A stretch of 64,000 nucleotides of DNA from Pseudomonas silvicola. Lineage in GTDB: Bacteria; Pseudomonadota; Gammaproteobacteria; Pseudomonadales; Pseudomonadaceae. Where the stretch lies: NCBI RefSeq assembly GCF_026651855.1, contig NZ_CP093280.1, forward strand, positions 5,124,001 to 5,188,000. Direction: 5' to 3'. Position 1 is the first letter of the stretch, and every line of letters begins with the position of its first letter. The notes under the pieces were generated by a model. It worked only from the letters and a program-made list of their open reading frames with translations, searched no databases and was not told where the DNA came from. Positions 39,592 through 64,000 of the stretch are shown in pieces. The position numbers and the translations under genes were made by a program.

Positions 39592-41844
39592 TCAGGGTTT
39601 CATCAACTGCATCTGTTGCCGGTATTCGTCGGTGACCTCCCGCGCTTCGCTGTTACTGGTCACGACCCGTGGGGTAATCAGCACGATCAGTTCGGTGCGC
39701 GCCTTGGTGCGGCTGGTCGAGCCGAACAGCCAGCCCAGTCCGGGAATGGAGCCCAAATACGGCACCTTGGCCACGGTCTGGGCATCGTCCTGCTTGATCA
39801 AGCCGCCCAGCAGCACGGTCTGGCCGCTCTGCACCGCGACCTGGGTAGCGATGGAGCGGGTGGAAATGCGCGGGTTGACGTCGGCGCTGGTGGTGGTACC
39901 GGCGTCGCTGACCTGTTGCTTGATGTCCATGTACACCAGCCCACCGGGGTTGATGCGCGGGGTCACGTCGAGGATCACGCCCGTCTGCACATACTCGACG
40001 CTGCTCAAGGTAGTGTCGGAAGCGATGGTGTTGACCGTGGTCTGGCTGATGGGGATGTCATCACCCACCTGTATCTGTGCCTGCTGGTTGTTCATCACCA
40101 CCAGCGACGGTGCCGACAGCACCTGGGTCTTGCCGCTGGACTCCAGGGCGTGGATGGCGATCTGCAGGTTGTTGCTGACGAACGAATAGAACAGCGAATC
40201 GGTGGCACCCAGCCCGGCCCCGCCACTGCCCAGGGCGCCCTGGCTACCGGACACGTTGCCAATGCCGGTGGTGGTGGAGTTGCCGGCCAGGCGGCCCAGG
40301 TACCACTGCACGCCCAGGTCCAGTTCGCCGGTCAGGGCCACTTCCAGGATACGGGTCTCGATCTGAACCTGCATGGGCGGGTTGTCCAGGCGGCGGATGG
40401 CGTTTTCGATCTCGGCCCATTGGCTGGGCCGCGTGCGGATCAACAGCTGGTTGCTGCTCTGCTGCGCGGTGATGCGCGTGCTGTCGTCCAGGCTCTTGCG
40501 GCCGGTGGTGTCGGTGGCATTGTTATCCTGTTCATCCGTGCTGTCGGCATTCTGGGCCTGGGTGTTCTGGCCATTATTGCCTGCGGTCGGGGTCAGGCTG
40601 TTGCTGCCCTGCCCCAGGCCGCCGCTGCGCGACAGGCTGGTCAAGGTACCGTTGCCCATGCCAGACCCATTGCTGCCGCCGCTGCCGATAGGCGTGCCCA
40701 GGGTGGTGGTGGTCAAGCCCGGCGCCACCTCGGCGGCGGGCTCCTCCTTGATCGCACCGCTGCCGTAGATCTGCCGCAGGTAGCGGGCCAGGTCCTGGGC
40801 TTTCATGTTGCGCACGTCGTATACATAGAGTTGCGGCTCGTTGCCGCCGCCATTGTCGATGGTGCGTATCCACTCGCCCACCTCTTGCAGGTACTGGGGT
40901 TGCGACGAGATCGCCACCACCGAGTTGGTGCGCTCGATGGGCATGAAGCGCAACATGCCCGCCAAGGGCGTGCCGCTGTCCGGCCCGAAGACTTTCTGCA
41001 GTTCCGGCAGCAACTCGGCCACGGTCGCGCGCTGCAGGCCGAACACGCCGATGGACATGCCGCGCAGCCAGTCGACGTCGAAGGTGTCGATGCTGGCCTG
41101 GTAGTTGGCCAGCTCATCGGCGGTGCCAGCCATGCCCAGTACGTTGCGCGCCGGGTCCACCAGCAGGAACGCGTTCTCGCGGGCGAATGGCTTGAGCAGT
41201 TTCTGCATTTCGCCAGCGGAAATGAAACGCAGCGAGAATAGCCGCACCGACAGCCCGGCGGCCGGTTGACGCATGCCCATGGACGGCACCAGTTGCCCGG
41301 CCACCGCCTGGTTGGCCGGCAGGATCAGGTAGCGGTCGCCCTGGCGGATCATGGCGTTGTTGGTCCAGGACAGCAGCGATTCGAGAATGGCCATGGACTG
41401 GGCCTTGTCCACCGGCTTGGAGGTGGAAAACGATACGTCGCCCGTGACGCCCTGGGCGATGCTGTAGTTCTCCTGCAACAGGTCGCCCATGATGGTGTTG
41501 ATGACCGCGACGATGGACTGGTTGTTGAAGTTGAACATGACCCCGGCGCTACCGTCGCCCTGGCGCGGGCCTGCGGCCACCGGCCTGCCGACACTGTTGG
41601 CGGGGCCTTGAATGAAGCGCTGGTTGCCCTGGATGATCTGCCGCTGGCCACCGCTGGGCGCACCGGGCGGGTTGGCTGCCGAGGCCGGCATGGGCGTGGC
41701 AGCAACCGGGCCGCGCTGGTCACCGGTGCCGCGCAAGGCCTCGCGTTCCAGGCTGTTGTCGGTGTCCAGGCTATGGGGCGGTGTGGTGCAACCGGCCAGG
41801 GCCAGTGCGACGAACAGCGGCAGCAGGGCAAAGGACGACGGCAT
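39592..41844 (-). CDS. gspD: Type II secretion secretin GspD (lipoprotein type), system 1
   Basis: A 750-residue outer-membrane secretin. The signal peptide ends in a lipobox LAGC with Cys19, so it is a liposecretin like HxcQ that would not need a GspS pilotin. N0-N3 domains occupy about 100-375, then a Ser/Gly/Thr/Asn-rich linker (about 375-455), then the secretin domain (VQIETRILEVALTGELDLGVQWYLG; SSVEYVQTGVILDVTPRINPGG; TVLLGGLIKQDD; ELIVLITPRVV). It forms the channel through which folded enzymes leave the periplasm. Last gene of the E-to-D operon. Confidence 0.9.
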   Translation of the reverse strand: MPSSFALLPLFVALALAGCTTPPHSLDTDNSLEREALRGTGDQRGPVAATPMPASAANPPGAPSGGQRQIIQGNQRFIQGPANSVGRPVAAGPRQGDGSAGVMFNFNNQSIVAVINTIMGDLLQENYSIAQGVTGDVSFSTSKPVDKAQSMAILESLLSWTNNAMIRQGDRYLILPANQAVAGQLVPSMGMRQPAAGLSVRLFSLRFISAGEMQKLLKPFARENAFLLVDPARNVLGMAGTADELANYQASIDTFDVDWLRGMSIGVFGLQRATVAELLPELQKVFGPDSGTPLAGMLRFMPIERTNSVVAISSQPQYLQEVGEWIRTIDNGGGNEPQLYVYDVRNMKAQDLARYLRQIYGSGAIKEEPAAEVAPGLTTTTLGTPIGSGGSNGSGMGNGTLTSLSRSGGLGQGSNSLTPTAGNNGQNTQAQNADSTDEQDNNATDTTGRKSLDDSTRITAQQSSNQLLIRTRPSQWAEIENAIRRLDNPPMQVQIETRILEVALTGELDLGVQWYLGRLAGNSTTTGIGNVSGSQGALGSGGAGLGATDSLFYSFVSNNLQIAIHALESSGKTQVLSAPSLVVMNNQQAQIQVGDDIPISQTTVNTIASDTTLSSVEYVQTGVILDVTPRINPGGLVYMDIKQQVSDAGTTTSADVNPRISTRSIATQVAVQSGQTVLLGGLIKQDDAQTVAKVPYLGSIPGLGWLFGSTSRTKARTELIVLITPRVVTSNSEAREVTDEYRQQMQLMKP

Positions 41845-41846
41845 GC

Positions 41847-42404
41847 TCAGTGACCCCCGGGGGCTGGCGACGAAGGCGCGGACCTGTTCAGCAGTATGGA
41901 CGACGCCGGCGCAGGCACCGGCATATTTGGCAAGCGTGGCGAAGGCAATTGCAGGCGCCGGACCTGGCCATTGAGTTCCAGCACCACCGCCTGGGCCTCG
42001 ATGCGTTGCAAGCGCCAGCCGCTGGCCAGTTGGCCGCCCTCGCGCAGGCTCAGGTCGTGGCCGTCGGCCTGCTTGAACAGTGCCCGGCGCACCGTGCCGT
42101 CGATGACCACGCCCGTGAGGCGCAGGCCACTCAAGTCAGGCGTGGCCTTGGCCATTTGGACCGATCGGTCGGGCTCCCGCGCAGGGCTGAACAGCGGGGC
42201 CTGCCAGGCGTTGGCCACCTCGCCCAGGGCGACGCCGGCCGGTATCTCCACGGCAGGCGCAATGGCGCCGTGAACAGGCACGGGCTCGGCCACCGGCCAC
42301 TGGGGCTGGCTGCCGACCCCCGTGGCCAGCCAGGCGAGCAACCCGGCCAGCATCAGCGCCAGCCCGGCCAGCAGTTGCACCAGCGGCCGGCGCCAGGCCC
42401 TCAT
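41847..42404 (-). CDS. GspC/HxcP-like inner-membrane clamp (sometimes annotated GspN), system 1
   Basis: A 185-residue bitopic protein: one N-terminal transmembrane helix (about 10-30), then a periplasmic homology region (LFSPAREPDRSV; LRLTGVVIDGTVRRALFKQADGHDLSLREGGQLASGWRLQRI). This is the region GspC uses to bind the secretin N0 domain. A C-terminal PDZ domain is missing; the chain ends in a Pro/Ser tail. Its start overlaps gspM by ATGA, and gspD follows two bases later. Confidence 0.78.
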   Translation of the reverse strand: MRAWRRPLVQLLAGLALMLAGLLAWLATGVGSQPQWPVAEPVPVHGAIAPAVEIPAGVALGEVANAWQAPLFSPAREPDRSVQMAKATPDLSGLRLTGVVIDGTVRRALFKQADGHDLSLREGGQLASGWRLQRIEAQAVVLELNGQVRRLQLPSPRLPNMPVPAPASSILLNRSAPSSPAPGGH

Positions 42405-42994
42405 CGTGCCGCCTGCGCGGGGGCCAGGTAGCCACTGAGCAACAGGTGCACTCCCAGCCGCCCGGCGCCACCACTGGCGGGTGCGTTGGCGGCACGGCGG
42501 ATGTTCAGTTCGTCGACAAACAGCAGCGGTTGCTCACCTTCCAGTTGCTGCAACAACGTGACCAGGGGCTGGATGGCGCAGTCCAGGTCCAGGCTCAGGC
42601 GCACCTGGCGAAACGGGGTGGCCGCCTGGTCCTGGGTGACGATGGGCATGCGCTGGGTCACCTGGCAGCCCCCGTTCAACGCCTCGTTGTCCTTGACCCG
42701 CTGGGCCACCTGCTGCATCAGGTCGGCGGCCACGGCGCTGGGGTCTTCGCCGGGCAACAGGCCCACGTCGTCACCCTGGGCGGCCTGCACGCCCTGCTCC
42801 AGAGCCTCGCGTTGGGCCAACAGGCGCTGGTAACGCAAGCGCTGCTCGGCCAGGGTATGCATCTGGCTGTCGATGTCTTGCAGGGGGGCTATCCACAGCG
42901 GCACCACCAGCAGGCTGTAGAAAGCCGCCGCCAGCAGGGCCACCAGCAACCAGGCGCCGACGCGGCGCTCACGGGGTGTCAGTGCGCGGCGCAT
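42401..42994 (-). CDS. gspM: GspM-like inner-membrane platform protein, system 1
   Basis: A 197-residue protein with one transmembrane helix (about 15-35), a coiled-coil stalk (MHTLAEQRLRYQRLLAQREALEQG) and a ferredoxin-like periplasmic end (VRLSLDLDCAIQPLVTLLQQLEGEQPLLFVDELNI). It partners GspL. The ATG at 42994 gives a 26-base overlap with gspL, the same overlap length seen in system 2. Confidence 0.8.
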   Translation of the reverse strand: MRRALTPRERRVGAWLLVALLAAAFYSLLVVPLWIAPLQDIDSQMHTLAEQRLRYQRLLAQREALEQGVQAAQGDDVGLLPGEDPSAVAADLMQQVAQRVKDNEALNGGCQVTQRMPIVTQDQAATPFRQVRLSLDLDCAIQPLVTLLQQLEGEQPLLFVDELNIRRAANAPASGGAGRLGVHLLLSGYLAPAQAAR

Positions 42995-43997
42995 CGCCAC
43001 CCTCCCCACGCGCCCGGGCACGCATGTAGAACCGTTCGCGGCCGCTGGCCTCATCAGGCTGGATCACGCCTTGATACTGGGCATCGGCCAGGTGATTACA
43101 GCCCTTTACCTGGGCGATCAGGCCGCTGGCGTGGCTGCTGAAGCCAGCGATGTCCACTTGGCCTTCGCCATTGATTTCCAGGGTCTGCAACCAGGTGTCG
43201 GTGGGCAGGCAACGGCTCAGTTCACTGAGCAACAAGGCCCGCCCGGGCTGCGCGAGCCGGCGCCGGGCGAGAAATTGCGCGGCGCCCTGAGCCTCGTCCA
43301 GGCGCTTGCGCAATGCGGCCACGGCCTCGGCCTGGGTGCGCAGCCCCTGTACCTCCTGGGTCATGGCCGCCAGCGCGGTCTCGCGGTTGTGCCGCCACTG
43401 CCAGGGCACGGCCGCCAACAGGGTCAGGCACAGCAACGCCAACCCCCAGGCCAGCCGTTGCCCCCCGCCGCTGGCGGCAGGCGCATGGGGCAACAGGTCC
43501 AGGCCCATGGGCTGGCCACGGGCGTCCAGCACATCGATACCCGCCAGCACCACACCCCGGGCGTGACACTCATCCAGGCACTGCTGCAACCACTCCCGGC
43601 GCAGCACGGCCAGCGTCACCCCTACCTGGTCGCTGTCGATGCCCTCGCGGCGCACCACGTAATGTACCTGGCCGGCACTGAACGGCGTGAAGCGGTCCAG
43701 TTCGAAGTCCATCACCCGGTGCAGGTCGCGGGCCGCCGCCAGCGGCAGGCCCAGGCGCTGCACCAGTACCCGGTCGGCCGGCAGTTCCAGTACCAGCCGC
43801 TCGCCCGGCAACGCCTCGGCGGGCAAAGGCCACGGGCAGCGCCGGGGTGCGCGGCCCGGCTGCAGGCCGCGGCGCAGGGCGGCTGGCAGGCTGGCCAGCA
43901 GTTCCTGGCCCCAGGCACGGCAGAAGCCCTGCACGGCACTGCCCTGCCATAAGCCTTTGAGCCGCTGTTGCCAGAGCCACAGGGACACTGCACGCAT
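42969..43997 (-). CDS. gspL: GspL-like inner-membrane platform protein (PilN domain), system 1
   Basis: A 342-residue protein. The cytoplasmic N-terminal part (about 1-180) has DFELDRFTPFSAGQVHYVV, typical of the HxcY/PilN-like group. One transmembrane helix (about 180-200) and a periplasmic coiled-coil and ferredoxin-like end follow. GspL binds GspE at the membrane and GspM in the periplasm. It lies 10 bases after gspK. Confidence 0.8.
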   Translation of the reverse strand: MRAVSLWLWQQRLKGLWQGSAVQGFCRAWGQELLASLPAALRRGLQPGRAPRRCPWPLPAEALPGERLVLELPADRVLVQRLGLPLAAARDLHRVMDFELDRFTPFSAGQVHYVVRREGIDSDQVGVTLAVLRREWLQQCLDECHARGVVLAGIDVLDARGQPMGLDLLPHAPAASGGGQRLAWGLALLCLTLLAAVPWQWRHNRETALAAMTQEVQGLRTQAEAVAALRKRLDEAQGAAQFLARRRLAQPGRALLLSELSRCLPTDTWLQTLEINGEGQVDIAGFSSHASGLIAQVKGCNHLADAQYQGVIQPDEASGRERFYMRARARGEGGDAPRTDTP

Positions 43998-44007: not shown

Positions 44008-44727
44008 TCACTCGTTGTAGCGCACCACCCTGAAGGGGCGCGCGCCGTTCTCCATGGGTGACAGTAGCACCGTGCTGTCGATCACGGCGGTGAACCCGTC
44101 GGGCAATTGCGCCTGGCTGCGAATACTCAGCACCTGACCGGCATCACCGGCCAGGGCCGCCACGCGTGGCAGGCCCAGCGCACGCTGCAGCACGGGGCTT
44201 GCGAAAGCCGGGTCGGGGTTTTCCTGGCCGCTCCAGACCGTGACGTCCGGCACCAGCGCCTGGTACAGGGCCGTGCTCATCCCGGGCAGGTCGCGCAACT
44301 CTTCCAGGGCGCGCAACGGCGGCTGGTTGCCATCGCGGCGCTGCTCCAGGGCCGCCGCCAGTGCCCGGCCCTGCCCCGAGCCCAACGCCTCGACCAGGCG
44401 GGCGAAATCCGCGGCCGCGGCGGCATTGAGGTCCAGTTTTCCGCGCTCGCTGCGCACGCTGACCTGCAAGGTGGCGTCGTCGAAACGCAAGGCCTGCACG
44501 CGGCCATCGGCGACCCAGCGCCGTGGCGGGTCGGCGTCAGTGAGGGCACGCACCGCCAGGTTCAACCCGGCTTCGGCCGCCAGGCTGGCGCGGGTATGCT
44601 CGGTTTGCCACAGGCCCAGGCGCGCCTGCTGGCGCACCTCCACCACCAGGGTGCCGAGCAACATGGCCAACAGGGCCATGGCCCATAGCACCAGCAACAA
44701 CGCCATGCCTTGCTGCGCCCGGTTCAT
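44008..44727 (-). CDS. gspK: Minor pseudopilin GspK, system 1
   Basis: A 239-residue minor pseudopilin, larger than the others, as expected for GspK. The prepilin leader is very short, with Gly7 before MALLLVLWAMALLAMLLGTLV. As usual for GspK, the +5 Glu is missing. The soluble part has SERGKLDLNAAAAADFARLVEAL, the normal GspK domain. It caps the pseudopilus with GspI and GspJ. The ATG overlaps the gspJ stop. Confidence 0.85.
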   Translation of the reverse strand: MNRAQQGMALLLVLWAMALLAMLLGTLVVEVRQQARLGLWQTEHTRASLAAEAGLNLAVRALTDADPPRRWVADGRVQALRFDDATLQVSVRSERGKLDLNAAAAADFARLVEALGSGQGRALAAALEQRRDGNQPPLRALEELRDLPGMSTALYQALVPDVTVWSGQENPDPAFASPVLQRALGLPRVAALAGDAGQVLSIRSQAQLPDGFTAVIDSTVLLSPMENGARPFRVVRYNE

Positions 44728-45341
44728 GGCGCCCCCTGGGTTTCACTGAGGTCCAGGCGCAGGGCCACCACCTGGGCCACCCACGGCACCGGGCCAGCGC
44801 TGTCCAGTTCGATCCGCACCGCCTGGGGCAGGCGCGCCGGCCAGGGCCAGCGGGGCAACCAGGCGGTAGGCTGGCCTCGGTCGTCCCGGCCGCGGTAACT
44901 CAAGCGCAGGTCGCGTACATCCTCCAGCAGCACCTGCGGCTGGCCCCAGGGCCGGGCAACACCGCGCAGCAGTTGCTCGAAGCGCACTTGCAGGGCCTGA
45001 TGGCCACCCAGGCCCACGAGTTCCAGGGTATGCACCTGCAGCCCGCCGCCCAAGGCACTGTTGAGGCCGGCGGCGAACACCAGGCGCTGGCGCTGGCCGT
45101 CGAATACCCGGGGCTGCTCGCCCTCCGCCGGCAGCTCCACCGGCAAGGCCCCTTCCAGAGCGTGGTGCAGGAAGTTCTGGCTGGCCCGCACCGCTTCCAG
45201 GCGCTGACCATAGTGCTCACCCTTGAGCGCCGCGCGGTTGGCGCCCAGCAGCGCGGTGCCCAGCAGGGCCATCAGCACCGCCAGCAGCACCAGGGCAAAG
45301 AGCATTTCGAGCAGGGTGAAACCGCTGGCCGGGCGCTTCAT
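44724..45341 (-). CDS. gspJ: Minor pseudopilin GspJ, system 1
   Basis: A 205-residue minor pseudopilin with the prepilin site SGFTLLEMLFALVLLAVLMALLG near residue 7. The start at 45341 overlaps the gspI stop (ATGA). The longer frame to 45434 is a shadow of gspI. Together with GspI and GspK it forms the pseudopilus tip complex. The mature domain has the GspJ-type RVFDGQRQRLVFAAGLNS block. Confidence 0.85.
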   Translation of the reverse strand: MKRPASGFTLLEMLFALVLLAVLMALLGTALLGANRAALKGEHYGQRLEAVRASQNFLHHALEGALPVELPAEGEQPRVFDGQRQRLVFAAGLNSALGGGLQVHTLELVGLGGHQALQVRFEQLLRGVARPWGQPQVLLEDVRDLRLSYRGRDDRGQPTAWLPRWPWPARLPQAVRIELDSAGPVPWVAQVVALRLDLSETQGAP

Positions 45342-45712
45342 CGGCTGGCGTCCAAAGCGGGTTGCGCCTGCACCGCCAAGGTACTGACCCGCAAGCTGCG
45401 GCGGCCCTCGCTGACATCCAGGTCCAGGCGCCACAACGGCAGCAGCGTGGCCGGCCCGGGCTCGCGGCTGATCTGCAGGCGCCAGCGCAGCGCCCCTTCG
45501 CTGCCGCGTCGTTCACCTGCTTGCAGGCGCTGGCCGCGCTGATCGTCCATCAGGCTACGGGCCACCAGGCTCAGGCGATCACTGGCGCGCACCTGTTCCA
45601 AGGTGCGCGCGGCCTGCCCGAACGCCACCAGCAGTACGGTGCAGCCCAGGGCGAACACCGCCAGGGCCGCGAGCATTTCCACCAGGCCGAAGCCAGCGCC
45701 GCGCAGCTTCAT
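45338..45712 (-). CDS. gspI: Minor pseudopilin GspI, system 1
   Basis: A 124-residue minor pseudopilin. The prepilin site reads GAGFGLVEMLAALAVFALG, with Gly before Phe and Glu at +5, slightly unusual because FTLLE is replaced by FGLVE. The length is normal for GspI. The start overlaps the gspH stop; the long upstream frame is rejected as antisense-like extension into gspH. Confidence 0.82.
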   Translation of the reverse strand: MKLRGAGFGLVEMLAALAVFALGCTVLLVAFGQAARTLEQVRASDRLSLVARSLMDDQRGQRLQAGERRGSEGALRWRLQISREPGPATLLPLWRLDLDVSEGRRSLRVSTLAVQAQPALDASR

Positions 45713-46194
45713 GGCAGGGCCCGCAGGCGCACGCTGCCGGTCAGCCAGCCCACGTCGATGCGCCACTGCCGGGTACCGCGTTGCATCACCAGGTGGCCGC
45801 CGGTGGAACTGCCATCGGGAAAGAATGCCACGGCAGCCCCCAGGTCGTCGGCAGTCGTCAACTGCAGCCCCAGGTCGGCGGGCCAGTGGCCGGGCGCCTG
45901 GCCGGGGGCCTGATAGCGGTGGCCCGCCAGGTCGAAACGGACCTGCCGGGGCTGGCCGCTGAGCACCGACTGGGTACGAGCCTGACGGAGGGCGCCGACG
46001 ATATCGCCCAGGGCCTGGCGCTCCCGTGCCGCGGCCATGCCCTGCCCCAGGCCAACGCCCAGTACGCCCAAGGCCACGGCCATGAGGGCGATCACCACCA
46101 ACAGTTCCAGCAGCGTGAAACCTGCCGGTGGTAGCAAAGCCTGCGGGCGAGAACACCGATGCGCTACCCCACCCCGGCCACGCTCACCTTTCAT
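45709..46194 (-). CDS. gspH: Minor pseudopilin GspH, system 1 (long leader)
   Basis: A 161-residue minor pseudopilin. The prepilin core PAGFTLLELLVVIALMAVALGVLGVG starts unusually far in: Phe at about residue 26 after a 25-residue Arg-rich leader. The start is set by an ATGA overlap with gspG; a GTG at residue 10 would give a shorter leader and cannot be excluded. The soluble part resembles GspH of system 2 (WRIDVGWLTGSVRLRALP at the end). Confidence 0.8.
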   Translation of the reverse strand: MKGERGRGGVAHRCSRPQALLPPAGFTLLELLVVIALMAVALGVLGVGLGQGMAAARERQALGDIVGALRQARTQSVLSGQPRQVRFDLAGHRYQAPGQAPGHWPADLGLQLTTADDLGAAVAFFPDGSSTGGHLVMQRGTRQWRIDVGWLTGSVRLRALP

Positions 46195-46601
46195 TCCCAG
46201 TTCCCCAGGTCGGCGTTGTAGCCCTCGCCGCCCGGCTGGCCGTCCTGGCCAAAGAAAATCAGGTCGAAGCTGCCGTGCTGGCCCGGGAAACGATAACCAA
46301 ACGGGTGGCCGAACGGGTCCTTGAGGTCCGAAGGCTTGGCGTAGGGGCCCGCCCAGCGGCTGTCACCCGCGGGGCGCTCCACCAGTTGCCCCAGGTCCCG
46401 GGGCGGCGCGCCCATGTCCAGGGCATAACTCTCGACCTTCATCGACAGGCTGGCCAACTGCGCCTTGCCCGCGCCGTACTTGCCCTTGTCGACGTTGCCG
46501 CCGACCTGGCGTACGACAATGGTGGCGACGATGCCCAGCAGGACAATGACCGCGAGCATTTCCAGCAGGGTGAAACCGCGAGTTCGATGCAGCGCCAGCA
46601 T
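46191..46601 (-). CDS. gspG: Major pseudopilin GspG, system 1
   Basis: A 136-residue major pseudopilin. The prepilin site GFTLLEMLAVIVLLGIVATI begins at residue 9, and the calcium-site C-terminal region contains DLIFFGQDGQPGGEGYNADLGNWE. The GspG of system 2 is almost identical: more than 50 consecutive residues match from the prepilin site onward. It forms the pseudopilus shaft after cleavage by a shared prepilin peptidase that is not in this window. Confidence 0.9.
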   Translation of the reverse strand: MLALHRTRGFTLLEMLAVIVLLGIVATIVVRQVGGNVDKGKYGAGKAQLASLSMKVESYALDMGAPPRDLGQLVERPAGDSRWAGPYAKPSDLKDPFGHPFGYRFPGQHGSFDLIFFGQDGQPGGEGYNADLGNWE

Positions 46602-46611: not shown

Positions 46612-47817
46612 TCAGATATTACTGGTCAGGCTCATCAGCGGCAGCATGATGGCCAACATGATGAACGCCACCAGCACGGCCATGACGATGGTCAGGGTCG
46701 GCACCAGCGCGGCCAGCAACCGGGCGATGCTGCGCCGAGCCTCGGCGTCGAACACCTCGGCTACCTTGAGCAGCATGGTGTCCAGCTCACCGGCTTCCTC
46801 GCCCACCTGGATCATTTGCAACGCCAGGTCAGGCAGTTGATTGTCATGGCTCAGGGCGCGGGCCAGCGACCCGCCGCCCTTGACCTGTTCGGTGGCGCCC
46901 TGCAACTGAGCGCGCACGGCACGGTTGGCGGCCACCTCGCAGGTAATTTTCAACGCCGCGAGCAAGGCCACGCCGTTTTCCAGCAGTGTGCCCAAGGTGC
47001 GCGCCACCCTTGCGGCTTCCAGGCGCCGCACCAGGTGGCCCAGCACCGGCCAGCCCAACAGCCGGCGGTCCCAGCGCAGGCGCCTGTCCGGGTCGCGCAG
47101 GGCACGCCGGGTCAGCAACCCCACGACGATAAAAGCGGCCAGCACCATCAGGCCGAATTGATTGAAGAACTGCCCCAGCCCCAGGATCACCTCGGTCACC
47201 AACGGAATGGGCACGCCCAGGTCCTGGAAGATCGGTACGAACTGTGGCACCACATAGGCCAGCAACAGCACCAGTGAACCCAGCACGCCCACCACCAGGA
47301 ACGCTGGGTAGATCAGCGCATTGATCACTTCGCCGCGCAACGCCTGGCTGCGCTCCAGGTAGTCGGCCAGCTGCCGCAGGCTGTCCTGCAGCGCCCCACC
47401 CGCCTCTCCTGCCCGCACCAGGCTCAGGTACAGGGGGGCAAACTGCTCGGGCTCCAGCGCAAGCGCCGCCGACAACGGCTGGCCTGCCTGGACCCGTTCG
47501 CGCACTCGGCCGATCAGTGCTCGAACCGGTGCCTGGGCCTTGCCCGGCGCGTTGTTGAGAATGCCCAAAGCGCGGTCCAGCGCCAGCCCGGCATGCAGCA
47601 AAATGGCCAACTGCTGAGTGAACGCCACCAGCGCCTGGGCGCTCAGGCCGCGGCGTGGCGACCAGGCCAGCCAGCGCCCGCCCGCGGGTTCGATGTGCAG
47701 CACCAGGGCCCCCTGGCGTTGCAGTTGCAGGGCAAGGGCCTGGCGATCGGCGGCCTCCAGCACCCCTTGGCGGGCGCTACCATCACTGTCCAGCACCCGG
47801 TAATGAAAACGAGCCAT
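46612..47817 (-). CDS. gspF: Inner-membrane platform protein GspF, system 1
   Basis: A 401-residue polytopic protein with duplicated cytoplasmic helical domains and three transmembrane segments (near 170, 220 and 375). Blocks such as FTQQLAILLHAGLALDRAL and LSLVRAGEAGGALQDSLRQLADYLERSQ are typical of GspF/PilC. It sits under the pseudopilus and couples to GspE. It ends with LPLMSLTSNI, the same end as the system 2 copy. Ten bases after gspE. Confidence 0.9.
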   Translation of the reverse strand: MARFHYRVLDSDGSARQGVLEAADRQALALQLQRQGALVLHIEPAGGRWLAWSPRRGLSAQALVAFTQQLAILLHAGLALDRALGILNNAPGKAQAPVRALIGRVRERVQAGQPLSAALALEPEQFAPLYLSLVRAGEAGGALQDSLRQLADYLERSQALRGEVINALIYPAFLVVGVLGSLVLLLAYVVPQFVPIFQDLGVPIPLVTEVILGLGQFFNQFGLMVLAAFIVVGLLTRRALRDPDRRLRWDRRLLGWPVLGHLVRRLEAARVARTLGTLLENGVALLAALKITCEVAANRAVRAQLQGATEQVKGGGSLARALSHDNQLPDLALQMIQVGEEAGELDTMLLKVAEVFDAEARRSIARLLAALVPTLTIVMAVLVAFIMLAIMLPLMSLTSNI

Positions 47818-49573: not shown

Positions 49574-49721
49574 GCTTGTTGCCTGCCGCCTTGCTGTCGT
49601 GGGTCTGGGTCATGACGGTAGCGTCCGGCGCACCGGATGTATTATCGCTGTCGGCCCCCAGGGCCGCGTTCGACACTACCCACAACGAAAGGACCGCGAC
49701 GGTCGCGATGATTGCTTTCAT
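49515..49721 (-). CDS. Small exported peptide upstream of gspE1
   Basis: A 68-residue protein with a clear Sec signal peptide (about residues 1-22, ending ...SNAALGA) and a short hydrophilic mature part of about 45 residues rich in Thr, Asp, Lys and Pro (DSKAAGNKHGDATKGGR). GGAGG lies 6 bases before the ATG, a strong site. It overlaps the start of gspE1, so it is the first gene of the operon. I do not recognise the family. It may be a periplasmic accessory or a secreted factor; this is a guess from position. Confidence 0.7.
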   Translation of the reverse strand: MKAIIATVAVLSLWVVSNAALGADSDNTSGAPDATVMTQTHDSKAAGNKHGDATKGGRPAPQATTPRP

Positions 49722-55260: not shown

Positions 55261-55775
55261 GGTGCGGCTACGTGAGGAAGGGTGAGCAAAGGCGCCGCGG
55301 CCGTCGCGGGAAGGCGCGGCACCGGCAGATTCAAGGTATGCGCCTGTCCCTGGCGCTGGAACGTGGCAGTGGTGGCGCTGACCTGGGCCAAGGTCCAGCC
55401 GCTGTCCAGGGCATCACCCAGGCGCAGCTTCAGGGAGCGCTGGTTGGCCAGGCGCACCAGTGCCCAGCGCTGGTCGCCGTCGACCACCACACCGCTCAGG
55501 CGCACACCGTCCAACGTCGGCGCGCCGGCCCCGCCCTTGGCCGCGTCGGCCTGGCGGTCGGGGCTGAACAGCGGGTGCTGCCAGGCCACCTGGCGCTCGC
55601 TATCGGGCAGTTGCAGCAACGCGGGCGCGGGTACGGCCTTGACGGGGGGCGGCGAATGCTGCGCCACGGGTGCCCACCGGGGTGCGGGGTCGCCCCCCAG
55701 GCACTGCCAGGCGACGGCCACCAACAGCAGGCCATTGAGGCAAGCCAGGCCCAAGGTGCTGCGCATGAACGTCAT
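55257..55775 (-). CDS. GspC/HxcP-like inner-membrane clamp, system 2
   Basis: A 172-residue bitopic protein: one transmembrane helix (about 8-28), then a periplasmic homology region (HPLFSPDRQADAAKGGAGAPTLDGVRLSGVVVDGDQRWALVRLANQRSLKLRLGDALDSGWTL). No PDZ domain follows. The shorter linker and lack of a long tail distinguish it from the system 1 copy. It is coupled by ATGA overlaps to gspM and gspD. Confidence 0.78.
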   Translation of the reverse strand: MTFMRSTLGLACLNGLLLVAVAWQCLGGDPAPRWAPVAQHSPPPVKAVPAPALLQLPDSERQVAWQHPLFSPDRQADAAKGGAGAPTLDGVRLSGVVVDGDQRWALVRLANQRSLKLRLGDALDSGWTLAQVSATTATFQRQGQAHTLNLPVPRLPATAAAPLLTLPHVAAP

Positions 55776-56380
55776 GGCTGGGCTCCCTTGGCCGCGGCGG
55801 TCAGGTAACCGCGCAGCAGCACCTGCACCTTCAACCGCCCCGCCGGGCCTTTTTCCGGCGCGTCAGTGGCGCGGCTGATGTTCAGGGCCTCGACAAACAG
55901 GGACGGCTGGCCGTATTCGAGCTGGTGCAGCCACTGCAGCAGGGGTTCGGTGCCGCAGGCCAGGGTCAGGCTGACCTTCACGTGCCGATAGGCCTGGGTG
56001 CTGTCCTGCTCGGGCACGACCGGCATGCGCTGGCTGACCTCGCAGCCCGGGCCCAGGGCCGACACGGCCTTGACCTTGTCCACCAGCGCCTGCATCAGGT
56101 CGGCGGCGGCCGCGCTGGGGTCCTCGCCCGGCAACAAGCTGCGACGGCTGGCGGGGTCCTGACGCGCGCGCTCCAGTTCAGCCTGCAGCGCCGGCCCCTG
56201 TGCCAGCAGCCGGGCGTAGCGCTGGTGCTGGGCATCGAGTACCTGGGCCTGGTCGGCCAGCTCCGCCATGGGCGTGGCGAACCAGCTGTCGATCAACACG
56301 TACCAGGCGCCATAGAGCACCACGGCCAACAGCGCCAGGGCGCCCAGGCGGCGTTCATTGCGGGTCGGGGGTCGGCGCAT
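55772..56380 (-). CDS. gspM: GspM-like inner-membrane platform protein, system 2
   Basis: A 202-residue protein with one transmembrane helix (about 12-32), a coiled-coil stalk (AQVLDAQHQRYARLLAQGPALQAELERAR) and a periplasmic end (KVSLTLACGTEPLLQWLHQLEYGQPSLFVEALNI). It shares the SLLPGEDPSAAAADLMQAL block with system 1 (LLPGEDPSAVAADLMQQV). The start overlaps gspL by 26 bases, exactly as in system 1. Confidence 0.8.
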   Translation of the reverse strand: MRRPPTRNERRLGALALLAVVLYGAWYVLIDSWFATPMAELADQAQVLDAQHQRYARLLAQGPALQAELERARQDPASRRSLLPGEDPSAAAADLMQALVDKVKAVSALGPGCEVSQRMPVVPEQDSTQAYRHVKVSLTLACGTEPLLQWLHQLEYGQPSLFVEALNISRATDAPEKGPAGRLKVQVLLRGYLTAAAKGAQP

Positions 56381-57404
56381 CGGCGGCCTCCTGGGAAAGG
56401 TGCGCCGCCAGGGCGAAACGGTCGTTGCCGGTGTGCGAATCGGGCTGAATCACGCCCTGGAAATGCGCGCCTTGCAGGCTGTGGCAGTCCCGGGCGCGGC
56501 TGATCAGGGCGCTGGCATGACGGCTCTGGCCGCTGAGGCTGACTTCGCCGTTGTCGCGCACCTCCAGTTGCTCCAGCCAGGTGTCATCGCCCAGGCAACC
56601 GCTGAGCTCGGTCAGTAGCGCGGTGGCCGTCGGGCGCGCGGTCTTCAGCCGGGCGAGGTAACTGGCGGCGCCTTGAGTGTCCGTCAGCTCGTGGCGCACG
56701 GCCTCCAGGGTCGTCACCTGTTGACGCTGTTGGGCCACCGCTTGCGCCATGCGGTCGACCTGGGCCTGCCGCTGGCCGAGGGTCACCAGCATGAGCGCCG
56801 CCAGCAGCACCACGGCGCCCACGGCCAGCCCGCGGTTGAGCCGGGCCGTGCGCGACGGTGCCGGGCGCAGGTGCGCGGGCAGCAGGTCGATACCCAGTGG
56901 CTCGCCGTTGCCCGCCCTGGCATCGATGCCACGCAGCGTCAGGCCCGCTGCCTGGCACTGCTCGAGTATCGCAGCCAGGCGCTCGCGGCTCACCGCCACC
57001 AGCAGTACCCGTGCCTGGTCGCCGGTACGCCGCAGGGCCCGGGCCGTGAAGTGCACCTGGTCGGCGGCGAACGGCGTGTAGCGGTCCAGCTCGAAAGTCA
57101 GCACCCGTTGCAGGTCAGCGGTGGCCGCCGCGGGCAGGCTGATGGTTTGCGCCATGACTTCACGAGCGGGCAGTTCCAGTATCGCCGGGCACGTGGCATC
57201 AAGGCTGACCGGCAACGGCCACGCCAACCGCTGCACGGCCGGGCCGCTGGCCAGGCGTGCGCGCAGCGGGGTGGGCAGCAGCCCGTGCAATTCCTGCAAC
57301 CAGGCGTGCAGCCAGCGCCGGGCGCGGCTGGCCTGCCACTGCCGAACCAGGGGATAAAGCCCGTGCCGGAGGCGCTCCAGCCCATTTGGTAACCGTATCT
57401 TCAT
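56355..57404 (-). CDS. gspL: GspL-like inner-membrane platform protein (PilN domain), system 2
   Basis: A 349-residue protein. The cytoplasmic part has TFELDRYTPFAADQVHFTARAL; a transmembrane helix (about 190-210) and a periplasmic coiled-coil and ferredoxin-like end follow. It resembles the system 1 GspL but is clearly diverged. The ATG overlaps the gspK stop. Confidence 0.8.
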   Translation of the reverse strand: MKIRLPNGLERLRHGLYPLVRQWQASRARRWLHAWLQELHGLLPTPLRARLASGPAVQRLAWPLPVSLDATCPAILELPAREVMAQTISLPAAATADLQRVLTFELDRYTPFAADQVHFTARALRRTGDQARVLLVAVSRERLAAILEQCQAAGLTLRGIDARAGNGEPLGIDLLPAHLRPAPSRTARLNRGLAVGAVVLLAALMLVTLGQRQAQVDRMAQAVAQQRQQVTTLEAVRHELTDTQGAASYLARLKTARPTATALLTELSGCLGDDTWLEQLEVRDNGEVSLSGQSRHASALISRARDCHSLQGAHFQGVIQPDSHTGNDRFALAAHLSQEAADAPTPDPQ

Positions 57405-58120
57405 TCTTGCCAGCGCAGGACCCGATATGGCCTGGCGCCCTCCTTTGTCTGGGTCAACATCAGGGTTACCTGCAACGTGGTGTGGTAGCCGTTGCGCAAG
57501 CGCGCTTCGCTCTGCACCGTGATGATCGGCCCAGGGTCAGCGTCGGGCTCACGCACTGCCGGCAGCCCCAGGGCCTGAGCCAGCGCCACCGGGGCCAACG
57601 CCGGGTCGGGCTGCGCCTGGCCGGACCACACGGTGATCCACGGCACGGCACAGTGGTACAGCGCGAAGCCCATGCCGGGCAGCTCGCGGAATTCGTCCAG
57701 CTTGCGCAGCGGCACAGGGCCCTGGCGCAGATGTTCAAGCGCTTGCAGCAACGGCTCGATGGCCTGGGGCGCGGCCCCGCACGCCTTGAGCAGGCGGCTC
57801 AGGTCCGGCGCCGAAGCGGCGTTGAGGTCCAGCTTGCCGCGCTCGCTGTACAGGCTGACGCGCAGGTCGGCATCCCCCAGGCGCAATTGGTGGGGCTGGC
57901 CGTCAGCGGGCCAGCGCGCCCGGGGATCGCGGGCCTGGCGCGCCATCACGGCCTGGGCCACACCGGCCTCGGCGGCGAGCAGGGCCTGGGTATGGCTGGC
58001 CTGCCACTGGGCCTGGCGATGCTGCACCTGCACGGTGGCGGCCAGCGCGCCGAGCAAGGTTGCCAGCACCGCGAGCACCCACAGCACCACCAGCAGCGCG
58101 ACGCCGCGCTGGGCCGTCAT
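57401..58120 (-). CDS. gspK: Minor pseudopilin GspK, system 2
   Basis: A 239-residue GspK with a short leader (QRG before VALLVVLWVLAVLATLLGAL) and no +5 Glu, as expected. The soluble domain has SERGKLDLNAASAPDLSRLLKACG, matching the system 1 block. The start at 58120 overlaps gspJ by ATGA; the longer frame to 58252 is an antisense-like extension. Confidence 0.85.
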   Translation of the reverse strand: MTAQRGVALLVVLWVLAVLATLLGALAATVQVQHRQAQWQASHTQALLAAEAGVAQAVMARQARDPRARWPADGQPHQLRLGDADLRVSLYSERGKLDLNAASAPDLSRLLKACGAAPQAIEPLLQALEHLRQGPVPLRKLDEFRELPGMGFALYHCAVPWITVWSGQAQPDPALAPVALAQALGLPAVREPDADPGPIITVQSEARLRNGYHTTLQVTLMLTQTKEGARPYRVLRWQE

Positions 58121-58716
58121 GGCGTGGCCTCGCTGGCCAGGTCCAGGCGCAGGCTGACCTGCTCGGTCACCCAGGGCACCGGCCCACGCAATCGGGCCTC
58201 GACGCGCACGGCCCGGGGCAACCGCTCCGGCCAGGGCCAGGTGGCCAGCCAACCGCTGTCCTTGCCCAGGGGCGCCAGGCCGCGATAACTGAACGTCAGC
58301 TGCTCCACGTCGGGTAGCAGCACCTGGGGTTCGCCAAACGGCTGCAGGGTGGTGCCTTGCAGGCGCGCCAGGCGAACCCGCAGCCGGTGGTGCTCCAGGC
58401 TTACCTGCTGCTGGAACAGCCCGCCCCCCACCGACTCGGGCAGCGGCGCGTAGAAACTCAGGCCATGGGCCTGACCGTTGAACACCGCGGGCTTGGCCGC
58501 GGCGTCCCCCGCCGCCACCGGCAGCGCCTGGCTGATCGCACGGCGCAGATAACCTTGGGCCGCGCGCAGATCGTCCAGGCGCTGGCTGAACCGTTCGGCC
58601 TTGGCCGAAGCGCGGTTGGCGCTGACCAGCGCAGTGCCGACAAGGCCCAGCAAGATGCCAAGCAGGCTCAGCACCACGAGGATTTCCAGCAGGGTAAAGC
58701 CGCGTTCAGCCCTCAT
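58117..58716 (-). CDS. gspJ: Minor pseudopilin GspJ, system 2
   Basis: A 199-residue minor pseudopilin with prepilin site RGFTLLEILVVLSLLGILLGLVG near residue 6. The mature domain has LLPDVEQLTFSYRGLAPLGKDSGWLATWPWPERLPRAVRVEARLRGPVPWVTEQVSLRLDL, parallel to the system 1 end. Coupled to gspI by an ATGA overlap. Confidence 0.86.
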   Translation of the reverse strand: MRAERGFTLLEILVVLSLLGILLGLVGTALVSANRASAKAERFSQRLDDLRAAQGYLRRAISQALPVAAGDAAAKPAVFNGQAHGLSFYAPLPESVGGGLFQQQVSLEHHRLRVRLARLQGTTLQPFGEPQVLLPDVEQLTFSYRGLAPLGKDSGWLATWPWPERLPRAVRVEARLRGPVPWVTEQVSLRLDLASEATP

Positions 58717-59075
58717 GGCGCCAGCCCGGCGCTACGCACTTGCAGCGTACTGAAGCGAGCTTCGCGCCCCTCGGCCTTCAGGCGCAGGTCCAATTGCCAC
58801 AAACGGTCGGGGCCGGGTACCGAAGGCACCGCGGCCACGTCCAGGGTCCACTGCACGTCATCCCACTGCCCTTGGCTGCGCCCTGGCGCCAAGGGCCCAT
58901 CGCCCAGGGCGTCCATCAATGACCGGGCCGCCAGGTTCAGCCGGTCGCTGCGCTGGGTTTGCTGCAAGGCGCGGGCACTCTGGCCAAATGCGCCCAGCAG
59001 CACGGTGGCGCACAGCGCCAGCACCGCCAGCGCCGCGAGCATTTCCAGCAGCGTGAAGCCCCGTTGGTGCGTCAT
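58713..59075 (-). CDS. gspI: Minor pseudopilin GspI, system 2
   Basis: A 120-residue minor pseudopilin with the site QRGFTLLEMLAALAVLALCATVLLG near residue 6, here with the canonical FTLLE. The start at 59075 overlaps the gspH stop; the longer frame to 59249 is rejected as a shadow. It forms the tip complex with GspJ and GspK. Confidence 0.85.
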   Translation of the reverse strand: MTHQRGFTLLEMLAALAVLALCATVLLGAFGQSARALQQTQRSDRLNLAARSLMDALGDGPLAPGRSQGQWDDVQWTLDVAAVPSVPGPDRLWQLDLRLKAEGREARFSTLQVRSAGLAP

Positions 59076-59500
59076 GGCAGGTCGCGCAGGCGCACGGCGC
59101 CGGTCAGCCAGGCCACGTCCACGCGCCAACGGCGCGGCCCCTGGGTGATCAGCACGTTGCCACCGCTGGCGCCGCCGTCGGGGTAGAACTCGAACCCGGC
59201 GCCCAGGCCTTCGGCGGTCTGCACGCGCACCTGCCACTCCTTGGGCCACTGCACCGGTGGTTTGCCCGGGGCCTGCACGGTGCGCTGCTGCAAGTCGAAA
59301 CGGGCGCGGGCGGGCTGCCCGGTGACGATGGCCTGTACCCGCGCCGCACGCAGCGTGTTGACTACCTGGGCCAAGGCCTTGCGCTCACTGGCACTGTGCA
59401 GCCCGCGCTGCAGGCCATAGCCCACCAACCCCGCGGCCACGCCGATCAGCACGATCACCACCAGCATTTCCAGCAGGGTGAAGCCCCGGGCCCTGTGCAT
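59072..59500 (-). CDS. gspH: Minor pseudopilin GspH, system 2
   Basis: A 142-residue minor pseudopilin with an ordinary short leader (Phe at residue 7: ARGFTLLEMLVVIVLIGVAAGLVG). The mature part ends in WRVDVAWLTGAVRLRDLP, like the system 1 copy, whose leader is some 19 residues longer. Five bases after gspG. Confidence 0.86.
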   Translation of the reverse strand: MHRARGFTLLEMLVVIVLIGVAAGLVGYGLQRGLHSASERKALAQVVNTLRAARVQAIVTGQPARARFDLQQRTVQAPGKPPVQWPKEWQVRVQTAEGLGAGFEFYPDGGASGGNVLITQGPRRWRVDVAWLTGAVRLRDLP

Positions 59501-59505
59501 CAGCG

Positions 59506-59925
59506 TTATTCCCAGTTGCCCAGGTCAGCGTTGTAGCCGTCGCCGCCGGGTTGGCCGTCCTGGCCATAGAAGATCAGGTCGAAGCTGCCGTGTTCACCGG
59601 GGAAGCGGTAGCCGAAGGCATGGCCGAACGGGTCTTTGAGGTCCGATGGCTTGGCGTACGGGCCGGCCCAGTTGCCGCCGTTGCTCGGCTTGGTCACCAA
59701 CTGGTTGAGGGTGGCCGGCGGCGAACCCACGTCCAACGCGTAGCTTTCCACCTTCATGCTCAGGCTGGCCAGTTGCGCCTTGCCGGCGCCGTACTTGCCC
59801 TTGTCGACGTTACCGCCCACCTGGCGCACGACGATGGTGGCGACGATGCCCAGCAGCACGATCACGGCGAGCATTTCCAGCAAGGTAAAACCGCCCTGGC
59901 GACGGGCCGACTTCATGGTTTTCAT
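59506..59925 (-). CDS. gspG: Major pseudopilin GspG, system 2
   Basis: A 139-residue major pseudopilin, nearly the same as the system 1 copy from the prepilin site (GFTLLEML, Phe at about residue 13) to the last residue (GYNADLGNWE). Differences cluster in one surface loop (about residues 80-95). A second ATG at 59916 would shorten the leader by three residues. Confidence 0.9.
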   Translation of the reverse strand: MKTMKSARRQGGFTLLEMLAVIVLLGIVATIVVRQVGGNVDKGKYGAGKAQLASLSMKVESYALDVGSPPATLNQLVTKPSNGGNWAGPYAKPSDLKDPFGHAFGYRFPGEHGSFDLIFYGQDGQPGGDGYNADLGNWE

Positions 59926-59938
59926 GGGGTTGGTTCCT

Positions 59939-61132
59939 TTAAATGTTACTGGTGAGGCTCATCAGCGGCAGCATGATGGCGAGCATGATCACGGCGACCA
60001 TCACGGCCATGACCACGGTAAGGCTGGGCACCAGGGCAGCGAGCAGGCGGTCGATGCCGCGCTTGGCTTCCACGTCGAACACCTCGGCGACTTTCAGCAG
60101 CATGCTGTCCAGCTCGCCGGCCTGTTCGCCGACGTCGATCATCTGAATGGCCAGTTCCGGCAGCAGCGGTTGCTGGCCAAACGCGCTGGCCAACGTGCCG
60201 CCGCCCTTGACCCACTCGGTGGCGTGTTCGACCTGGGCGACGACGGCGCGGTTGCTGCACACCTGGCGCACGATCTGCAGCGCCTGCAGCAGCGCCACGC
60301 CGTTGCTGAGCAAGGTGCCGAGGGTGCGCGCCAGGCGGGCGGCCTCGATGCGTTGCAGCAGCGGGCCGATGACCTTGATGCGCAACAGGCGCCGGTCGTT
60401 GCGCTGGCGCCGGGTCGGGTCGCGCAGGGCGATCGCCGTGCCCCAGATGGCCACGATGAGCCCGGCAAGCACCATCAGGCCCCAGGCGCTGAGAAACTCG
60501 CCCAGCGCCAGAATCACCTGGGTAATCAGCGGAATGGGAACGCCCAGGTCGCGGAAAATCGGCACGAACTGCGGCACCACGTAAGCCAGCAGCAAGGCCA
60601 GGGAACCCAGCACGCCGACGATCAGGAACGCCGGGTAGATCAGCGCGTTGATCACTTCGCCGCGCAGGGTCTGGCTGCGCTCCAGGTAATCGCTGAGCTG
60701 GCGCAGGGTGTTTTCCAGAGCGCCGCCGGCCTCGCCGGCGCGGACCATGCTGATGTAGAGGGTGGAGAACTGCCCGCCCTCCTCTTCCAGCGCCTGGGAC
60801 AAGGGCTTGCCGGCTTTCACCTGTTCGCGGATGCGTTCGATCAGGGCGTGGGCCTTGGGCGCCTGGGTCTGCTTGAGCAGGATGCCCAGCGAGCGTTCCA
60901 GGGGTTGGCCGGCGCCCAGCAGGGTCGCCAGTTGCTGGGTGAAACTGACCAGGGCGGCGCCGTTGAGGGCCACGCTGCCACGGGACAGCCGCTGGCTGCC
61001 CGCTTCCAGGTTCAACACCAGCCAGCCGCGGGCCTGCAGGTGCGCCAGGGCAACACGCTCATCGGCGGCCTCCAGGTTGCCTTTCTGCGTGGCGCCGTCA
61101 GCGTCCAGCGCGCGGTAGCGGAATGTGGCCAT
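59939..61132 (-). CDS. gspF: Inner-membrane platform protein GspF, system 2
   Basis: A 397-residue polytopic GspF/PilC-type protein with ISMVRAGEAGGALENTLRQLSDYLERSQ and the same LPLMSLTSNI end as system 1. ATG 61132 (MATFRYRAL) is used; the longer frame to 61204 runs into gspE. Only one base separates it from the gspE stop, so coupling is likely. Confidence 0.9.
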   Translation of the reverse strand: MATFRYRALDADGATQKGNLEAADERVALAHLQARGWLVLNLEAGSQRLSRGSVALNGAALVSFTQQLATLLGAGQPLERSLGILLKQTQAPKAHALIERIREQVKAGKPLSQALEEEGGQFSTLYISMVRAGEAGGALENTLRQLSDYLERSQTLRGEVINALIYPAFLIVGVLGSLALLLAYVVPQFVPIFRDLGVPIPLITQVILALGEFLSAWGLMVLAGLIVAIWGTAIALRDPTRRQRNDRRLLRIKVIGPLLQRIEAARLARTLGTLLSNGVALLQALQIVRQVCSNRAVVAQVEHATEWVKGGGTLASAFGQQPLLPELAIQMIDVGEQAGELDSMLLKVAEVFDVEAKRGIDRLLAALVPSLTVVMAVMVAVIMLAIMLPLMSLTSNI

Positions 61133-61133: not shown

Positions 61134-62843
<1,710 letters not shown>

Positions 62844-63355: not shown

Positions 63356-63604
63356 ATGAAACAGCTCATATTACCTGTCATGGGTACTGTACTTCTGTGC
63401 GCCCAGAGTTTTGTCGCCTGCGCGGCGGACTCAACATCTGGCACCGGCACTTCTTCCATGCAGGAAGTTCGCCAGCAGATCGAAGCCAAGCGCGACCAGA
63501 TCTCTGGTGTCGACCGCGTGCAGACCACCACCCAGACCGCCACCCCGGTGGATGACGCCCCGATCGTCACTGACGACGCCCCTGCTCAGGAGCAGCAACA
63601 ATGA
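63356..63604 (+). CDS. Small exported peptide upstream of GH3-2
   Basis: An 82-residue protein with a Sec signal peptide (about 1-24, hydrophobic LILPVMGTVLLCAQSFVACAA), then a hydrophilic mature part rich in Thr, Asp, Gln and Glu (VDDAPIVTDDAPAQEQQQ). The ATG at 63356 is used; a TTG directly before it is the alternative. Its TGA overlaps the ATG of the GH3-2 gene (ATGA), so the pair is co-translated. No known family recognised. It differs in sequence from the peptide near gspE1. Confidence 0.65.
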   Translation: MKQLILPVMGTVLLCAQSFVACAADSTSGTGTSSMQEVRQQIEAKRDQISGVDRVQTTTQTATPVDDAPIVTDDAPAQEQQQ

Positions 63605-64000
63605 GCCATTCCACCCTGCGACGTACCCTGGGCCTGAGCCTGTTGGCCCTGGGTGTCGCCCAGGCGCACCTGGCCCTGGCGGCCACCGCTACCCCGGCCA
63701 CCGGCAACGCCGTGGAAGCGCGGGTCAGCTCGATCCTCGACAACATGAGCACCTCGGAGAAGATCAACTTCACCCGCGTCGACGACGGCCACATGATCCC
63801 CAAGCTGACCAAGTGGGGCATCCAGGGCACCGTGGCCTACGATTCGTCCATGGGCGTGCACGTCAACAACGCCACGTTTGGCGCCCAGTACCCGTCGCAG
63901 TCGGCCCTGGCCGCTACCTGGAGCATCAACCGCGCCAAGGAATTCGGCCAGGCCATCGCCTACGAAACCCGTATTTCCGGCGGCCAGCAAATGCTATCCC
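63601..64000 (+). CDS. Exported family 3 glycoside hydrolase, N-terminal part (cut by window end)
   Basis: An open frame of 133 codons that runs off the end of the window. A signal peptide (about 1-28, ending LALAA) is followed by the N-terminal GH3 region: VEARVSSILDNMSTSEKINF, WGIQGTVAYDSSMGVHVNN and AQYPSQSALAATWSINRAKEFGQAIAYETR. It parallels GH3-1 (AQQTLSQMTLAEKLDYIGG and YPSGPNLAATFNLRRAVDFGRALGYDT). The DSSMGVH block differs from the more usual DGGLGVR seen in GH3-1. Catalytic residues lie beyond the window. Confidence 0.8.
   Translation, partial: MSHSTLRRTLGLSLLALGVAQAHLALAATATPATGNAVEARVSSILDNMSTSEKINFTRVDDGHMIPKLTKWGIQGTVAYDSSMGVHVNNATFGAQYPSQSALAATWSINRAKEFGQAIAYETRISGGQQMLS

Follow-up and report, generated by a model that had tools for sequence, protein, structure and literature searches.

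The Xps type II secretion system (T2SS) of Xanthomonas euvesicatoria is encoded in the order XpsE-F-G-H-I-J-K-L-M-C-D (PMC11981180). In Pseudomonas fluorescens SBW25, the gene of Psp, a DING protein, is reported to lie beside the hxc cluster and its product to be mainly Hxc-secreted (PMC2225411). Xcm of P. putida is a further Pseudomonas T2SS beside Xcp and Hxc (PMC4509608), and in a plant-associated Pseudomonas with two T2SS clusters a double gspG deletion is reported to have had no effect on onion symptoms (PMC12724166). The present analysis concerns a window of 64,000 nucleotides from the Pseudomonas silvicola genome (8.65 Mb, 3 contigs; window at G000:C1:5124001-5188000), in which two complete T2SS operons, copies A and B, lie side by side, each divergent from a gene encoding a family 3 glycoside hydrolase (GH3).

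Both operons follow the Xps gene order, E-F-G-H-I-J-K-L-M-C-D, which is also found in Xanthomonas sp. Leaf148 (L050). As further likenesses to Xps, GspM is of the XpsM type (138 bits against an NF040576 cut-off of 60 in copy A, the copy scanned; PF10741 over its cut-off in both) and no prepilin peptidase gene is present among the 11 genes of either cluster. By gene order, XpsM-type GspM and lipobox-like secretin N-termini, the machine is classed from its sequence as Xps-type. It is labelled so, and not as an Xps orthologue, because GspC fails the XpsN equivalog: copy A, again the one scanned, scored 20.2 bits where the cut-off is 400, and its T2SSB match was sub-threshold. Unlike Xps, the Pseudomonas modules have a divergent GH3 gene, small genes that we name T1 and T2, and three copies in one genome. 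Compared by description and not by sequence, Hxc is similar in that a T2SS cluster adjoins its own substrate gene, as is putative for the GH3 modules, but its substrate is a phosphate-binding protein and not a glycosidase. Xcm is comparable as an additional Pseudomonas T2SS, likewise by description and not by sequence, and the plant-associated strain in having multiple clusters. A T2SS with an adjoining substrate gene was thus known before from Hxc/Psp. No published report of a GH3-T2SS pairing in Pseudomonas was found in a search that left out most subscription papers and was not aimed at T1/T2.

We propose, with a probability of about two in three, that the module consists of an Xps-type T2SS evolutionarily tied to a family of PA14-containing GH3 enzymes, together with a small, predicted exported partner matched to the GH3 type.

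Pairing of the secretion system with PA14-containing GH3 enzymes

An earlier note, made from the letters of the window alone, had described two T2SS operons, each divergent from a GH3 gene, and this layout was confirmed, including the gene order and the 26-base gspM/gspL overlap in both A (42969-42994, with the gspM start taken at MRRALTPRERR) and B (56355-56380). GH3-A occupies 50176..52932 on the plus strand, and GH3-B starts at 63601 on the same strand, with its 5' part in the window (63601..64000) and its end at what would be 66303 (whole gene L010:7601-10303). The two modules are, however, two of three: a module C of equal order and layout, with a gspM/gspL overlap of 20 bases, lies about 1.8 Mb away (G000:C1:3326493-3339820), and the whole genome has three GspG matches, one each in modules A, B and C. 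Genome G286 is organised as P. silvicola is, with an A-B tandem carrying GH3-A and GH3-B and a module C elsewhere. Strain L18 (G386) also holds modules A, B and C, with GH3-A detached from the A-type T2SS.

GH3-A and GH3-B matched PF00933 and PF01915 over cut-off, in addition to PA14 and Fn3-like domains, which places them in the GH3 family and gives them the domains of 3abz. This structure, which we take to be KmBglI, a PA14-containing GH3 beta-glucosidase, aligns along residues 42-847 of GH3-C, and it is by this alignment that GH3-C is assigned to the family. The aligned part includes the SD(Y/F) and EGEGxDH regions, which presumably hold the catalytic Asp and Glu. Every NCBIfam GH3 equivalog among the matches listed, which would have named a substrate, scored below its cut-off for GH3-A, GH3-B and GH3-C, and the closest GH3s found outside Pseudomonas are 32-35% identical. 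In 321 genomes across the class, a close member was found in P. silvicola only, two others being 32-33% identical.

The earlier note had suggested searching for the pairing in other Pseudomonas genomes, where it proved to be real and widespread. The family was sought in a sample of 398 Pseudomonas genomes at E values up to 1e-120, with two candidates per genome scored (13-14 in the small-protein searches), and gspM was called strong at a T2SSM_b score of at least 45 bits, a cut of our own that 101 genomes pass. The GH3 family is present in 67 of the 398 genomes, all of them within these 101, while the remaining 297 have none (Fisher p 7e-51, with no correction for kinship). Among the 95 GH3 matches, 67 are divergent from a gspM at a distance of 7,380-8,844 bp. 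GH3-B adjoins T2SSs of several lineages and is also found unlinked; in genomes such as G018, G369, G312 and G383, which have an unlinked GH3-B, the single strong gspM match is linked to GH3-C.

Small proteins T1 and T2 and the C-terminal tail

Each module in the window also holds a small intergenic gene that was previously unannotated and absent from the earlier note. T1 (about 70 aa) lies on the gspE strand directly before gspE in GH3-A/C modules; in module A it is a predicted exported protein of 68 aa at 49515..49721 (minus strand) with GGAGG upstream. T2 (about 82 aa) lies directly before GH3-B, and in copy B the predicted exported protein of 82 aa (63356..63604, plus strand) overlaps the GH3-B start codon (ATGA). 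T1 was discovered through a group of intergenic words, GACCCAGA, sought as a shared operator; that candidate was rejected when the words proved to be T1 coding sequence. Separately, TAAACCTA, as such or as its complement, is found again and again in the GH3-gspE intergenic regions of L018-L024, B0 and L029 and is a possible regulatory site.

The two families have no visible kinship to each other. Both have signal-peptide-like N-termini (by eye), and the remainder is hydrophilic, with a mean grand average of hydropathy of about -1.2 for T1 and -0.8 for T2 at a rough cut at residue 23. Two proteins of each family scanned against Pfam and NCBIfam gave nothing over cut-off and weak matches below it. 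The ratio of non-synonymous to synonymous substitution rates (dN/dS) is 0.07-0.20 in seven T1 pairs and 0.13-0.46 in six T2 pairs; both small genes are under purifying selection.

In the 398 genomes, T1 gave 63 matches in 61 genomes and T2 45 matches in 33, and the genomes with T1 or T2 are exactly the 67 GH3 genomes. Of the 95 GH3 matches, 60 are accompanied by T1, 33 by T2, none by both and two by neither. A divergent GH3 stands alongside 60 of the 63 T1 genes; for the other three, GH3-C is spread over two frames (G191, G211) or truncated where the contig stops (G379). All 45 T2 genes are directly upstream of a GH3-B (33 matches, three more by coordinates, and 9/9 fetched loci). Unlinked GH3-B genes keep T2 at 13/13 loci plus 9/9 more, and T2 stays with GH3-B even where the T2SS is outside the B clade (L179, L181, L183, L190), with no T1 found there. 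Through four switches, T1 and T2 thus track the GH3 type and not the T2SS lineage, and the small-protein type is never mismatched with the GH3 type, two GH3-A genes having neither. As a further observation, G093, G312, G325, G383, G294, G055, G050, G334 and G026 carry, apart from the first GH3-B, another one of about 70% identity with a T2 of its own (L220-L228).

The enzymes also share a C-terminal SNPLP tail after the Fn3-like domain, present in 58 of 61 family GH3 frames (50/52 and 8/9). The three exceptions are the unlinked copy of G191 (SNALP), L228 (SNPLS) and G305, whose frame is broken before the tail. Among eight outgroup frames, two were uninformative (in L002 the longest frame is not GH3, and L004 is cut), and SNPLP was found in 0 of the six others. 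A tail profile run on eight genomes gave 19 matches, all of them family GH3s, with the next best at E 0.21; the candidate reading of the tail as common to other proteins was rejected, none being found at E <0.2 in these genomes. SNPLP is followed in GH3-A/C by a stretch of variable length that is acidic in many, whereas GH3-B ends about 15-20 residues from the motif. This tail, and in the A and C types the further acidic stretch, sets the Pseudomonas enzymes apart from 3abz.

T1 and T2 could act as leader peptides in regulation, or in the periplasm as inhibitors keeping GH3 inactive before its release, and we regard this as possible, if rather doubtful. Both proteins are short, hydrophilic and of no known family, and the overlap of T2 with the GH3-B start codon in copy B would suit a leader. 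The signal-peptide-like starts and the dN/dS of 0.07-0.46 argue against a leader that is simply translated, while an inhibitor role is compatible with these data and would still be GH3-specific. Such a role overlaps with our proposal of a matched partner, because the proposal leaves the exact role of T1/T2 open.

Separate lineages, gene conversion and gene annotation

For the T2SS tree, the sequences of E, D, L, M, K and J were concatenated (45 rows; LG+G4 with a quick method); the tool warned of long branches (G119, G160, G145, duriflava and others). Topology was tested by the approximately unbiased test (p-AU) on a 42-row tree without outgroups, both test groups having been named after the tree was seen. 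In the GH3 tree (36 rows), GH3-B and GH3-A/C form two deep groups. On the T2SS tree (34 labelled rows), the GH3 type switches at least four times, and starred branches force each of these changes. The T2SSs of the 12 GH3-B-linked modules do not make up a single clade (p-AU 8e-96), and strict inheritance of GH3-B together with one T2SS lineage was therefore rejected.

The pairing might simply reflect shared inheritance of a syntenic block in which GH3, small gene and T2SS stand together without functional dependence. The conserved layout could be inherited as one block, and many of the linked modules come from related species. Three results make this account improbable: the GH3 type was switched at least four times at the same place, unlinked GH3-B genes occur only in T2SS-bearing genomes of the sample and have retained T2 at every locus examined, and the GH3 is absent from all 297 genomes that lack a strong T2SSM_b match.

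That A and B are a tandem duplication later specialised for two GH3 substrates, as the earlier note had supposed from their adjacency and equal gene order and overlaps, is very improbable: the note's own tree check goes against it, as a single A+B clade was rejected (p-AU 5.9e-63; 4 A and 3 B rows), and GH3-A is 45% identical to GH3-B but 66% identical to GH3-C. The two copies are not each other's nearest relatives; B is nearer to C and to other species' modules, and the A-type clade lies outside the clade of B, C and the other GH3-linked systems. Because of this position and the rejected clade, the tandem arrangement is, on the tree evidence, not a recent duplication. The supposed specialisation for different GH3s stands in part, in that each module is paired with its enzyme and the cargo-side subunits diverge; its strict form is weakened by the occurrence of GH3-B with several T2SS lineages and by the genomes in which GH3-B is unlinked and the single strong gspM match belongs with GH3-C.

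Between A and B, the conserved subunits GspE and GspD are 70.4% and 70.2% identical, GspG 83.8%, and the divergent GspC, GspL, GspM and GspI 45.7%, 42.5%, 46.7% and 44.2%. The divergence of GspC and GspL claimed for the copies therefore holds, with cargo-side subunits diverging and the core conserved, but the near-identity of GspG claimed between A and B (114/136 residues) belongs instead to B and C, at 99.3% (138/139). GspF of B and C is also close (93.7%), but their GspC and GspL are only 44.6% and 50.3% identical. DNA comparison of the three modules of P. silvicola (G000) and of G286 located a shared B/C tract of 1.6 kb with sharp edges, running from gspF codon 57 through gspG to gspH codon 42 (59375..60971 in the window; L015:11899-13495 in module C). 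Over 1551 sites of this tract, B and C are separated by 6 differences in G000 and by 19 in G286, and orthologues of the two genomes by 34 (B) and 37 (C). The tract has 23 sites with a within-genome B=C pattern and 0 with the orthologous pattern, against 1 and 1168 from gspI to gspC and 0 and 303 in gspD. The tract is a product of gene conversion, which, because of the 23 sites against none, continued after the split of the two species.

In L18 and G085, gspF-gspG of modules B and C is interrupted by N runs or contig ends, the expected effect of a long near-identical repeat; this is weak support, because the module A gspF of L18 also holds a gap. Conversion between A and B was considered and rejected, their DNA identity being 65-86% over the gspF-gspG part of the tract. 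In four other two-module genomes, G020, G347, G291 and G022, no conversion was seen at the protein level, because the paralogues are 62-79% (GspF) and 79-83% (GspG) identical.

All T2SS genes of the window are on the minus strand. In both copies, D, M, L, H, G and F scored above their Pfam cut-offs, as did J of copy A. For C, K and I, and for J of copy B, family matches were weak or missing, and these genes were assigned by position and alignment. In module A, gspD (39592..41844) matched Pfam Secretin (E 2.3e-54) and TIGR02517 over cut-off and has a lipobox-like N-terminus, LALAGC (by eye). It is followed by a short gspC/xpsN-like gene (41847..42404; weak T2SSB and XpsN matches below cut-off), positioned as xpsC is in PMC11981180, and by gspM (42401..42994; PF10741, 83.7 bits; XpsM by NF040576), gspL (42969..43997; PF05134 and PF05137 over cut-off) and gspK (44008..44727; by position, with PF21687 and NF037980, E 1.9e-12, both below cut-off). 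The gspJ start was chosen at MKRPASGFTLLE (44724..45341; PF11612 and PF07963 over cut-off). The gspI start is MKLRGAGFGL (45338..45712), assigned by position and by alignment with B and C, its long frame having no Pfam match. Next are gspH (45709..46194; PF12019), gspG (46191..46601; PF08334, E 3.4e-28), gspF (46612..47817; PF00482) and gspE (47828..49573; TIGR02533 over cut-off). Since the called ATG of this gspE falls within T1, translation probably begins further downstream, at GTG codon 24 for instance. GH3-A beyond them has a signal-peptide-like start, GH3 N and GH3 C domains, the latter with the PA14 insert, and the Fn3-like domain and tail described above.

In module B, gspD (53026..55260; Pfam Secretin E 4e-54) has the lipobox-like N-terminus LAGC (by eye), and gspC (55257..55775) was placed by position, with PF11356 below cut-off at E 2.8e-5. 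Then come gspM (55772..56380; T2SSM_b, PF10741, 74.7 bits), gspL (56355..57404; PF05134) and gspK, started at MTAQRGVAL (57401..58120) by position and by alignment with A and C; the longer gspK frame had no GspK match in Pfam and a sub-threshold EAD2 match only. They are followed by gspJ (58117..58716; PF07963 over cut-off, PF11612 below), gspI, started at MTHQRGFTL (58713..59075; PF07963 and alignment), gspH (59072..59500; PF12019), gspG (59506..59925; PF08334, E 8.6e-29), gspF, started at MATFRYRAL (59939..61132; PF00482), and gspE, started at MSYCNLPV (61134..62843; by position, with 70-74% identity to copies A and C). GH3-B carries PF00933, PF01915, PA14 and Fn3-like matches. Beside module A lies a run of genes (34862-39057) that Pfam matches as an SDR dehydrogenase, an MFS transporter and both transketolase halves. 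Rfam gave 0 matches at the gathering threshold across the window.

Proposed working of the modules and its meaning

As we propose, the signal peptide would take the GH3 across the inner membrane, and the enzyme would then fold in the periplasm, where T1 (for GH3-A/C) or T2 (for GH3-B) may assist its own enzyme; the simplest such role would be that of a periplasmic chaperone, adaptor or keeper. The T2SS would carry the enzyme out through its lipoprotein-like secretin, with an export signal of which the common SNPLP tail is a candidate part. On this view, the three modules are old units evolving separately in one genome, with A and B adjacent by arrangement; B and C exchange the gspF-gspG core through gene conversion, and their cargo-facing subunits remain distinct. 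A more specific version, which we consider somewhat unlikely, has T1 and T2 as cognate secretion adaptors, each binding the GH3 type that it accompanies, possibly close to the SNPLP tail, and delivering it to the Xps-type T2SS. If that version were true, there would be a swappable cargo-adaptor layer, and a T2SS could change its substrate without changing its own recognition subunits.

Several observations weigh against the proposed tie between machine, enzyme and small partner. Of the 95 GH3 matches, 28 have no gspM pair on their contig; four of these adjoin a T2SS or T1 where a contig stops (G085 twice, G335, G178), and 24 are truly apart from a T2SS. Conversely, of the 112 strong gspM matches, 67 are GH3-paired and 45 lack a GH3 in the count. 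Of these 45, 34 belong to the 34 GH3-less genomes, so the machine also exists outside this pairing; the other 11 include three with a GH3 outside the best two per genome, seven with a GH3 split at a contig end or broken, and one, the A-type T2SS of L18, genuinely without GH3. In that strain the GH3-A (G386:C14:163105-165828) is on another contig than the A-type T2SS (L017/L162) and has no T1, and in module A of G286 (L157) T1 is frameshifted though the GH3-A frame is open. The pairing count excluded 131 further genomes whose T2SSM_b match is below 45 bits, of 232 with any match. Among 80 named loci, several of them cut short upstream, a GH3 divergent to gspE was found in eight, all Pseudomonas, and this layout was not seen outside the genus; L046 and L077 have weak GH3 matches in a different layout.

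Some GH3-less loci have other neighbours. A large TonB-dependent receptor-like gene precedes gspE in the same direction in L167, L168 and L171, and a LacI-type regulator gene with a TonB-dependent receptor-like gene is upstream of gspE in L169 and L170 (all by eye). In L166 (G304:C1:3613000-3632000), a divergent astacin-like metallopeptidase gene (HEFGHMLGAHHEH, by eye) is in the place of the GH3 and is perhaps a cargo replacement; a frame beside gspE there resembles the start of T1 (E 0.006) and is remnant-like.

The modules offer a set of naturally varied GH3 enzymes, with identities as low as 45%, that in 398 genomes is confined to one T2SS type, and they provide a concrete way to ask how T2SSs choose their cargo, by deletions and swaps within one strain. 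T1 and T2 switch with the enzyme and not with the machine, and the C-terminal motif was unseen in other proteins of the eight genomes searched. By sequence, the conversion between B and C sets GspF and GspG, as an interchangeable core, apart from those parts of the secretion system that are specific to each module.

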